A stretch of DNA of 64,000 nt from Actinomycetota bacterium (GTDB lineage: Bacteria; Actinomycetota; Actinomycetes; Nanopelagicales; Nanopelagicaceae). Position 1 is the stretch's first letter; each line of letters begins with the position of its first letter. The stretch is from contig WLPU01000008.1 of assembly GCA_009698615.1 (NCBI GenBank), positions 1 to 64,000 of the forward strand, read 5' to 3'. Shown piece after piece: positions 7,692-11,119 of the stretch. The notes below the pieces were generated by a model. The model did not search any database, was not told the DNA's origin, and saw only the letters and a list, made by a program, of their open reading frames with translations. The position numbers and the translations under genes are program-made.

Positions 7692-8726
7692 TTACGCGAG
7701 TAGAGAAGTACCAGTAGAGCGAAGGTCATCGCATGCACGTTGCACACGTGCGGCCATTCCTGCCTCTGCCAACTTGCCCCACGCACGTGGATCGTACGCC
7801 TTCTTGCTTCCAACTTCGCCGTCAATCTTTAAGACACCATCATAATTTTTGAAAACGTGATCAACCACCGGTCTGGTGTATGCATATTGAGTGTCTGTAT
7901 CGATATTCATCTTTACAACACCGTAATCAAGAGCCTCGCGAATTTCGGTCAGAAGCGAGCCGGAACCACCGTGGAATACTAAGTCCATCGGTTTGCTTCC
8001 CTCGGCAAGTCCTAGTTTCTTTACAACAGCATCTTGCAAGGTACGCAAAATCTTTGGTTGCAATACAACGTTACCTGGCTTATAAACACCGTGAACGTTT
8101 CCGAAAGTTGCTGCTACGAGATAGCGGTGCTTAGGATCGCTGCCAAGAGTCTCAATTGTTAGTAGAGCATCTTCTGGGTGAGAGTAAAGCTTGGCGTCAT
8201 GTTTTGCTTCGATTCCATCTTCTTCTCCACCGACGACACCGATCTCAATTTCCAAAATTGTGTGCGCTAATTTTGACTTGGCAAACATCTCTGCTGCAAT
8301 CTTCATATTCTCTGGCATTGAAACTGCAGAGCCATCCCACATGTGAGAATTGAAAAGTGGCGCTTTGCCATCTTTGATGCGTTGTGCACCAAAATCAAGA
8401 AGTGGCCGCATAAATCCATCTAACTTCTCAGCAGGGCAGTGATCTGTGTGAAGAGCAATCTGTACGTTGTAATGCTTTGCAACAACGTGGGAAAATTCTG
8501 CTAACGCCACGGCTCCGTCAACCATGTGCTTGACTGTTGCACCAGATGCATATTCAGCACCGCCCCAAGAAAACTGCAAAATTCCATCTGATTTCGCTTC
8601 TGCAAATCCCCGAAGCGCCGCAACTATTGTCGATGACGATGAAACGTTGATGGCTGGATATGCAAAAGCACCTGCTTTGGCGCGGTCTAACATTTGCGAA
8701 TAAATCTCAGGACTGGCTATTGGCAT
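7692..8726 (-). CDS. fba: Class II fructose-bisphosphate aldolase
   Basis: Zinc-dependent aldolase of glycolysis/gluconeogenesis, splitting fructose-1,6-bisphosphate into DHAP and glyceraldehyde-3-phosphate. Metal-ligand motifs 'HTDHCPAEK' and 'FHGGSGS' are present. I place the start at the ATG at 8726 (344 aa, 'MPIASPEIYSQ'), because GGGAG lies 5 bases upstream of it; a GTG 12 bases earlier would overlap that SD. It is co-directional with purA and could feed the same transcript. Confidence 0.95.
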   Translation of the reverse strand: MPIASPEIYSQMLDRAKAGAFAYPAINVSSSSTIVAALRGFAEAKSDGILQFSWGGAEYASGATVKHMVDGAVALAEFSHVVAKHYNVQIALHTDHCPAEKLDGFMRPLLDFGAQRIKDGKAPLFNSHMWDGSAVSMPENMKIAAEMFAKSKLAHTILEIEIGVVGGEEDGIEAKHDAKLYSHPEDALLTIETLGSDPKHRYLVAATFGNVHGVYKPGNVVLQPKILRTLQDAVVKKLGLAEGSKPMDLVFHGGSGSLLTEIREALDYGVVKMNIDTDTQYAYTRPVVDHVFKNYDGVLKIDGEVGSKKAYDPRAWGKLAEAGMAARVQRACDDLRSTGTSLLA

Positions 8727-8829
8727 TAGGGCTCCCACTGTTTGCGCGGATGTAAATCTCGCATCATGCGCGCCATTGGGCAGATTGGAGGCTTACGGGC
8801 AATTCCACCACATTTTGCCCTCTAACAAC

Positions 8830-8869
8830 AAAATCGCCATACGAATGATTGAGTCCGCATGGCGATTTT
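8830..8869 (-). terminator. Hairpin terminator after the micropeptide gene
   Basis: An 11-base perfect inverted repeat (8830-8840 with 8859-8869, unit AAAATCGCCAT) encloses an 18-base loop. T-rich tracts flank both sides, so it could work in either direction. On the minus strand it lies about 30 bases after the micropeptide stop and before fba, insulating the two. Between it and fba there is a second, shorter inverted repeat (GGGCAA 8797-8802 with TTGCCC 8815-8820) of unknown role. Confidence 0.7.
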
Positions 8870-8897
8870 CTTTTCTTCGGAGCGCTAGCGCCCGCTT

Positions 8898-9008
8898 TTA
8901 GTGCGCAATGGTCGCCAACATCTTGGTCAGGAGCAAAAAGAGCTTGCCTACTAGGGCAGGGCTCGAGAGGATCTTGAGGAATGCGGCAATGAATGCAGCC
9001 AGCGTCAT
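8898..9008 (-). CDS. Hydrophobic 36-residue micropeptide
   Basis: Small frame below usual length cut-offs, from ATG at 9008 to TAA at 8898. The peptide begins 'MTLAAFIAAFLKILSS' and continues with a second apolar stretch containing 'GKLFLLLTKMLATIAH'. It is almost wholly hydrophobic with three lysines and a C-terminal His, and would form one or two short helices in or on the membrane. An SD (AAGGA) stands 4-5 bases before the ATG, and a strong hairpin terminator follows about 30 bases after the stop, so it looks like a complete monocistronic unit. I do not recognise the family. It could be a membrane micropeptide or a toxin-like peptide; no antisense RNA or antitoxin was identified. Confidence 0.6.
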   Translation of the reverse strand: MTLAAFIAAFLKILSSPALVGKLFLLLTKMLATIAH

Positions 9009-9095
9009 GGATTCCTTTCTAACTAATAATCGTTCATGGATAAGGCGGGCAGTCTCACCTATTGAAAGTTCGCCACGTGAGAAAAACAGCTGGCT

Positions 9096-9152
9096 TGTGA
9101 AGAATCTGCCACGGTGAATACCTACCGAAAGTGAGATTGTCAGAGTAATCTC
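9096..9152 (+). promoter_or_regulatory. Possible regulatory elements upstream of acs
   Basis: At 9096-9111 there is a perfect TGTGA half-site with a degenerate second half six bases on (TGCCA instead of TCACA), which could be a weak Crp/GlxR site. At 9133-9152 the pair GAGATT/AATCTC forms a 6-bp inverted repeat ending 8 bases before the acs ATG. Both are weak by themselves; regulation of acs by GlxR is known in corynebacteria. Confidence 0.25.
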
Positions 9153-9160
9153 TGGAAATC

Positions 9161-11119
9161 ATGAGCGATGAGACACTAGAAAATATTCTGAGCGAAACTC
9201 GAACCTTTCCACCGAGTGCTGCCTTCGCTGCTCAAGCTAACGCCCAACCTTCTATTTATGCCCAAGCCGATAAGGATCGCTTGGCGTTTTGGGAGAAACA
9301 AGCAAAAGAATTGTTATGGGATTCGCCTTGGAACACAGTCTTGGAATGGAAACCGCCGTTTGCGAAATGGTTTATTGGTGGAAAAATTAATGCCTCCGTC
9401 AATTGTTTGGATCGCCACGTTAACGAAGGTCGCGGAGATCGCGTTGCCTTCCACTTTGAAGGCGAACCTGGAGATACTCGCACAATTACATACGCCCAAT
9501 TATTGACCGATGTAAAAAAAACAGCTAACGCGCTGACCGAACTCGGTGTGAAATCTGGCGACCGGGTGGCTATTTATATGCCGATGATTCCAGAGGCAGC
9601 AATGGCAATGTTGGCATGCGCACGAATCGGTGCGGCGCACTCGGTAGTTTTCGGCGGGTTTTCTGCAGAAGCACTCCTTTCTCGAATTCAAGATGCTGAC
9701 GCGACCCTAGTTATTACTGCCGACGGCGGATTTAGAAAAGGCAGCGCGTTTGCACTCAAGCCTGCAGTTGATGATGCGCTCAAGGGTTCTACAAATGTCA
9801 AGAAGGTATTAGTAGTTAAGCGCACAGGGCAAGAAACCGCTTGGGATAATGCGCGGGATGTTTGGTGGCACGAGATTGTTGAGCGCCAATCAGCTGAACA
9901 TGTCGCTCAGAGCTTTGATAGTGAACATCCTCTGTTTATTTTGTATACCTCTGGAACCACTGCAAAACCAAAGGGTATTTCCCACACCACCGGTGGATAT
10001 TTAACTCAAGTTGCTTACACCCACAAAATAGTTTTTGATTTGAAACCCGAGACAGATGTCTACTGGTGTACCGCGGACGTCGGGTGGGTTACTGGCCATT
10101 CATACGTCGTTTATGGTCCGCTGATCAATGGCGCGACTCAAGTTATTTATGAAGGTACTCCAGATACTCCTCACAAAGGTCGCATGTTCGAGATCATTGC
10201 TAAATACGGCGTAACTATTTTGTACACCGCACCAACGCTTATCCGCACATGGATGAAGTGGGGCGATGAATTCCCTAATGCCCATAATCTTTCATCTTTG
10301 CGTTTGCTCGGATCGGTGGGAGAACCAATTAATCCAGAAGCATGGATGTGGTACCGAGACATTATTGGCGGCAAGAGATGTCCGATTGTAGATACGTGGT
10401 GGCAAACCGAAACGGGTGCAATCATGATTTCACCTCTGCCAGGAATCACCGCAAGCAAACCTGGTTCTGCAATGCGTCCACTACCCGGGATTAGTGCCCG
10501 CGTTGTTGATAACAACGCCAAGGATGTTGGCAATGGGCATGGCGGCTTCCTCATTCTTGATGAGCCCTGGCCATCAATGTTGCGTGGAATTTGGGGCGAG
10601 CCAGAGCGTTACAAAGAAAGTTATTGGTCGAAATTTAAAGATTTGTACTTTGCCGGAGATGGCGCCAAACTAGATGACGATGGCGCAATTTGGTTGATGG
10701 GCCGCGTTGATGATGTTATGAATGTTTCGGGCCATCGAATCTCAACAACAGAGGTTGAATCTGCGCTCGTGTCTCATGAAGTTGTTGCTGAAGCAGCTGT
10801 TGTTGGCGCTGCCGATCCAATGACGGGGCAAGGCATTGTTGCTTTCGTTATTTTGCGCACTGGTATCGCAAGCGCTCAAGGTGATGCCTTAGTGAAAGAG
10901 TTACGTGACCATGTCACCAAGGAAATTGGTGCTATCGCCCGACCACGCCAAATCATGGTTGTTGCCGAGCTACCAAAAACTCGCAGCGGCAAGATTATGC
11001 GTCGGCTCCTTAAAGATGTGGCAGAAAACCGCGCAGTGGGAGATTCAACAACTTTGGCTGATCCCAACGTAATGAAACTTATTTCAGAGGGGCTTCAGAG
11101 CGCTACTTCGGAAGATTAA
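9161..11119 (+). CDS. acs: Acetyl-CoA synthetase
   Basis: Activates acetate to acetyl-CoA through acetyl-AMP (ANL superfamily). 652 residues is the usual length. The AMP-binding loop 'YTSGTTAKPKG' lies near residue 264, the hinge motif 'GRVDDVMNVSGHR' near 515, and the C-terminal 'PKTRSGKIMRR' carries the catalytic lysine at 611, the residue controlled by acetylation in characterised Acs. The 3' end overlaps the convergent cvpA-like gene by 17 bases. It is monocistronic. Confidence 0.97.
   Translation: MSDETLENILSETRTFPPSAAFAAQANAQPSIYAQADKDRLAFWEKQAKELLWDSPWNTVLEWKPPFAKWFIGGKINASVNCLDRHVNEGRGDRVAFHFEGEPGDTRTITYAQLLTDVKKTANALTELGVKSGDRVAIYMPMIPEAAMAMLACARIGAAHSVVFGGFSAEALLSRIQDADATLVITADGGFRKGSAFALKPAVDDALKGSTNVKKVLVVKRTGQETAWDNARDVWWHEIVERQSAEHVAQSFDSEHPLFILYTSGTTAKPKGISHTTGGYLTQVAYTHKIVFDLKPETDVYWCTADVGWVTGHSYVVYGPLINGATQVIYEGTPDTPHKGRMFEIIAKYGVTILYTAPTLIRTWMKWGDEFPNAHNLSSLRLLGSVGEPINPEAWMWYRDIIGGKRCPIVDTWWQTETGAIMISPLPGITASKPGSAMRPLPGISARVVDNNAKDVGNGHGGFLILDEPWPSMLRGIWGEPERYKESYWSKFKDLYFAGDGAKLDDDGAIWLMGRVDDVMNVSGHRISTTEVESALVSHEVVAEAAVVGAADPMTGQGIVAFVILRTGIASAQGDALVKELRDHVTKEIGAIARPRQIMVVAELPKTRSGKIMRRLLKDVAENRAVGDSTTLADPNVMKLISEGLQSATSED

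Follow-up and report, generated by a model that had tools for sequence, protein, structure and literature searches.

A conserved micropeptide gene in a variable slot beside acs and fba in the family Nanopelagicaceae

Introduction

Does the 434-bp interval between acs and the class II fba gene of this actinobacterial genome hold a gene and, if so, what might its product do? An initial annotation of the window (the whole 64,000-nucleotide stretch of DNA that was analysed) had proposed a hydrophobic micropeptide gene with its own Shine–Dalgarno (SD) site and terminator, the product being possibly a membrane-complex subunit or a toxin-like peptide. The 36-residue product of this ORF is MTLAAFIAAFLKILSSPALVGKLFLLLTKMLATIAH; the gene, for which no strand had been given, lies on the minus strand, with acs diverging from it and fba following it (Table 1). 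Our literature search found no publication on this gene.

Table 1. Features of the acs–fba interval and its neighbours (positions in the window)
Feature	Position	Strand	Remarks
Micropeptide gene, 36 codons	8898..9008	minus	stop TAA included
Shine–Dalgarno AAAGGA	9013..9018	minus	four bases 5′ of ATG
Intrinsic terminator: long stem (8869–8830), loop, T-rich tail	8824..8872	minus	folding and covariation
Divergent promoter region common to peptide and acs	9019..9160		by eye, alignments
acs, acetyl-CoA synthetase, divergent neighbour	9161..11119	plus	Pfam PF00501, PF13193, PF16177
fba, class II fructose-bisphosphate aldolase, downstream past terminator	7692..8726	minus	Pfam PF01116; ATG at 8726

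Results

A coding gene under purifying selection

The 36-residue ORF is a real gene whose protein sequence is under purifying selection. Of the 20 other genomes in the genus, 18 gave a homologue in a whole-genome search; the two congeners without one also lack any match to acs or fba, so that the locus is probably absent from their assemblies. The frame is open in all 22 cases, no alternative frame is open throughout, and the stop codon itself varies between TAA, TGA and TAG. In two subclades, synonymous changes account for 80–83% of the single-difference codons, against an expected 32%, and dN/dS by ratio of means is 0.14 and 0.19 (medians 0.12 and 0.13), figures that are rough since synonymous sites are close to saturation. 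Among close relatives the identity within the ORF is 0.75, compared with 0.28 and 0.26 (about chance) in the flanking spacers without gaps. An ORF that passes the hydrophobicity and SD filter arises in just 2.8% of dinucleotide-shuffled slots. The initial annotation had suggested judging the ORF by Ka/Ks on homologues, and had named a conserved RNA with a lost reading frame as the outcome that would make it a small RNA; what was found is the opposite, with the frame kept and the flanks no more alike than chance. That the locus is a small RNA whose ORF is accidental is hardly credible: the hairpin is conserved and the transcript is short, as would suit such an RNA, but there is no Rfam family, conservation is limited to the ORF, and we rejected this reading on the strength of the codon-level selection seen in the synonymous excess.

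When 296 genomes of the family were searched with a profile, a second genus (g16) proved to carry the micropeptide, in dozens of genomes and essentially as a single copy in each; among 395 genomes sampled across the class, matches were confined to these two genera. No relatives were found in viral contigs, on which ground a prophage or mobile origin was rejected. The related records are metagenome-assembled genomes (MAGs) of freshwater actinobacteria, and judging from genome size, habitat and gene content their family is probably Nanopelagicaceae. A MAG labelled Streptomyces griseus (L194, CAMCYO010000005.1) carries this freshwater locus as well, and the label looks wrong.

A transcription unit of its own

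The SD sequence is kept in the aligned congeners with one exception, which has ATAAGGA. The stem of the terminator starts 28 nt past the micropeptide stop and comprises 16 pairs, counting those formed by the A- and T-tracts; its minimum free energy is −24.0 kcal/mol, against a shuffle mean of −11.4 (z −4.9), and among 15 relatives eight of 17 stem pairs are altered on both sides with pairing retained. A simple terminator scan did not detect the 8869–8830 hairpin, probably because its T-tract pairs with the A-tract. The initial annotation, which had the ORF ending just before an 11-bp hairpin, was right about the existence of the hairpin, but hairpin and stop codon do not touch. The terminator closes the peptide transcript ahead of fba; SD and terminator are both conserved, and the peptide would be made from its own short mRNA. 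The conserved frame, the low median dN/dS and the compensatory changes in the terminator together bear out the description of the locus as a hydrophobic micropeptide gene that possesses both an SD and a terminator of its own.

In alignments read by eye, acs has a conserved −10-like TAATCT on the plus strand, and the −10 of the peptide gene would be a weaker AGAAT/AGACT-like candidate. A sigma-70 scan found no promoter-like site on either strand, but the promoters of acs and fba escape it too. DnaA-box-like strings (TTATCCACA / TTTTCCCCA) recur near the acs promoter, in the acs–peptide spacers of genera g2, g7, g15 and g17; possibly they are merely the acs −35 region. Upstream of fba, at 8740–8815 of the window on the minus strand, lies a near-invariant block, GTGGTGGGATTGGGCGTAAGCCTC..GGCCCAATGGCGCGC..GATTTACAT, which is also present in loci L003–L023 and L047–L056 and is partly retained at L047, from a genus that lacks the peptide. 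It has no Rfam match and appears more likely to be an operator than an RNA hairpin, because several species have a disrupted inverted repeat.

A hypervariable slot across the family

The gene is one version of a slot found across the family, next to acs, fba or purA, whose micropeptides are hypervariable. When the sequence upstream of fba and of acs was read in other genera, an SD-bearing short ORF of 32–54 residues was found at the equivalent slot in 13 of the 17 sampled genera (numbered here g1 to g17), and no slot peptide was found in g5, g9, g12 and g14. Two types, which occur in different genera, can be told apart. Type A peptides (32–53 residues) are those of g1, g2, g3, g4, g8, g10, g13, g16 and g17. 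Their homology is clear by alignment for g1, g16, g3 and g4, has weak profile support for g2/g13 and g17 (E = 0.001 between g1/g16 and g2 and 0.0015 between g2 and g17, both weak, and a still weaker 0.019 between g1/g16 and g17), and for g8 and g10 membership is by position and pattern only. At the g8 locus L075 (genome G027), a gene that by eye resembles class I fructose-bisphosphate aldolase lies past the peptide, at the usual place of class II fba. Type B peptides (48–54 residues, one truncated at 35) were found in 45 genomes of g6, g7, g11 and g15 and in no other genera, and carry the signature HSNxGLLGLDR plus two nearly invariant histidines. This signature (loci L049, L050, L052–L054, L056 and L111–L133), in which the two histidines (LH...HSN) are nearly invariant and the asparagine and two glycines invariant, is more specific than that of type A, and the histidine pair could possibly form a ligand or metal site. 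Homology between types A and B has no profile support, and the two may be distinct genes that occupy a common slot.

The neighbours of the slot vary as well. Where class II fba is missing (g2 and g17), purA replaces it as the next gene; the distance between peptide and acs is about 0.9 kb in some of the g7 genomes; and g11 keeps the peptide with fba but has acs at another place. Neither acs nor fba can thus be an obligate partner. The arrangement in the window, where peptide and fba share a strand, the peptide gene comes first and a terminator separates the two, could suggest a leader peptide whose translation governs read-through into fba. We nevertheless rejected an fba leader, a reading scarcely better placed than the small RNA, because purA follows in other genera; in addition, fba has its own conserved block past the terminator, and no run of regulatory codons was seen. 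The peptide is also dispensable, since it has been cleanly lost from genomes G201 (L064, a one-contig genome) and G222 (L162), in which acs and fba lie about 150–175 bp apart without it. The resolution of the acs tree is too weak for gains and losses to be counted, and the tree is compatible with a single gain.

Form of the peptide

Peptides of the window's type are amphipathic, with a predicted helix-hinge-helix form, and the slot peptides are mostly cationic and lack an evident signal peptide. An AlphaFold2 model places helices at residues 3–14 and 17–35 (mean pLDDT 86.6), and type B is also modelled with two helices, at low confidence (pLDDT 65). In 59 distinct peptides of g1, g16, g3 and g4, hydrophobicity follows a helical periodicity over residues 2–14 (P = 0.005) and 17–35 (P < 0.0001), and lysine 12 is invariant in all 59; F6, K12, P17 and K29 are invariant in the g1/g16 alignment. 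Net charge is +2 to +5 in 18 of 19 representatives, the g17 form shown being neutral, and cysteine is absent from all 19. Kyte–Doolittle hydrophobicity over 19 residues reaches about 2.1, and no classical signal peptide was evident by inspection.

No significant family match was obtained in Pfam, NCBIfam, PHROGs, PADLOC, the PDB (by sequence) or Foldseek. The nearest sequence neighbour is the pore-forming pardaxin (E = 0.13 in the PDB and 0.042 in Pfam, not significant), a likeness that is physicochemical only. A Tet(L)/Tet(K) match in NCBIfam for one type B member (E = 0.003) was judged spurious. The group has no name in the libraries searched; its kind, the short amphipathic bacterial membrane peptide, is already known.

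Discussion

Our best reading, which we hold with somewhat better than even confidence, is that of a membrane-interface peptide, dispensable yet retained in most genera, a role that we infer from the features described above. The peptide would bind the cytoplasmic membrane, its two helices lying at the interface or the molecules joining into a small oligomer. Nearly all of the sequence has changed between genera whereas length, charge, hinge and periodicity have been kept, from which one could assume that function is set mainly by bulk amphipathic properties; selection would then keep amphipathicity, length, the hinge and, in the alignable group, lysine 12 over the precise sequence. Since selection would act on bulk properties rather than on exact sequence, the job is more likely to be lipid-facing than to depend on a rigid protein–protein fit, and candidate jobs would be membrane shape, integrity or permeability, or the anchoring of a partner. 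What counts against an interface position is that the peptide is also hydrophobic enough for a single membrane-spanning helix.

It could be, then, that the peptide spans the membrane once and serves a membrane enzyme or transporter as accessory subunit or regulator, a possible but rather improbable reading. CydX, KdpF and similar small accessory membrane proteins are 30–40 residues long and are encoded with their partner complex. Length and hydrophobicity of the micropeptide would suit such a role, and the residues invariant in g1/g16 (F6, K12, P17 and K29) could form a binding face. However, the neighbours in the loci read (acs, fba and purA) encode soluble metabolic enzymes rather than a membrane complex, and a near-complete turnover of sequence between genera, with length and amphipathicity kept, is unlike subunits of conserved partners. 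The membrane-complex subunit suggested in the initial annotation is therefore in keeping with our results as regards membrane association, but a plain span fits less well than helix-hinge-helix.

Whichever job the proposed membrane-interface peptide performs, streamlined genomes have few spare genes, and an unannotated micropeptide that most genera have retained is probably of importance to its host. Being nearly invisible to similarity search across genera and traced by its slot, it also suggests that similar genes have probably been overlooked elsewhere. The natural losses in G201 and G222, together with the replacement of type A by type B or the reverse, provide ready comparisons toward its role.

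Comparison with known systems

Type I toxins of the Fst/Ldr kind, silenced by antisense RNA, resemble the micropeptide in being hydrophobic and about 30–36 residues long, with an intrinsic terminator, here flanked by A- and T-tracts; the window's subclade also has a PxxxG stretch (P17–G21), which other subclades have not retained. These toxins carry a tryptophan between the transmembrane helix and a highly charged C-terminus, although the Fst prototype has valine in its place (PMC7472228). The micropeptide has no tryptophan and ends in, e.g., TIAH, TLGH or LHP, and the missing charged tail weighs more than the missing tryptophan because of this exception. No direct repeats were found at the locus, and no antisense promoter-like site was seen in the sigma-70 scan, which overlooks the promoters of acs and fba too. 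The SD is consistently strong, and the gene is single-copy, nearly universal and vertically kept, and gave no match on viral contigs. On the missing tail signature and repeats we rejected Fst/Ldr membership, and the toxin-like role raised in the initial annotation did not hold up; a type I toxin of this kind is very unlikely.

Phenol-soluble modulins, with the PSM-like LspU, are staphylococcal small amphipathic helices exported by a dedicated ABC transporter and missed by annotation (PMC12607899). The micropeptide is likewise an amphipathic helical small protein overlooked by annotation, but its host is not staphylococcal, no exporter lies beside the gene, and there is no sequence match: the window peptide has no Pfam or NCBIfam match and its relatives gave nothing significant. 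A released membrane-active peptide without a signal peptide, similar to these modulins or to leaderless bacteriocins and acting against competitors or as a surfactant, would accord with the cationic, helix-hinge-helix and hypervariable character of the group and with its weak, non-significant best match to pardaxin. Yet no exporter or immunity gene is adjacent in the loci read, and strong purifying selection within genera with vertical, single-copy inheritance is atypical for bacteriocins, so that we regard this reading as unlikely.

The PorA and PorH cell-wall channel peptides of corynebacteria are amphipathic and helical, with as little as 37–40 residues in Corynebacterium urealyticum and C. 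jeikeium, and are encoded by genes so divergent that BLAST fails and that were located via the groEL2–ppk2 slot (PMC3792995, PMC5944148). Membership was rejected because our slot is another one (acs–fba or acs–purA) and because no EmbABC arabinosyltransferase was found: a search for PF04602, covering the arabinosyltransferase alone, gave a positive C. glutamicum control and no match in the genome analysed here, so that nothing points to the mycolate outer membrane that a PorA/PorH-type porin needs. Sequence match to the window peptide is absent as well. One could go further and see in the slot a core, fast-evolving, pore-forming or membrane-shaping family, a cytoplasmic-membrane counterpart of the porA/porH slot in which types A and B stem from one ancestral gene, an idea that we consider rather doubtful. 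The corynebacterial porA/porH slot is nevertheless the nearest analogue in behaviour, its peptides being, like those described here, actinobacterial, very short and amphipathic helical, with an intrinsic terminator downstream of the gene.
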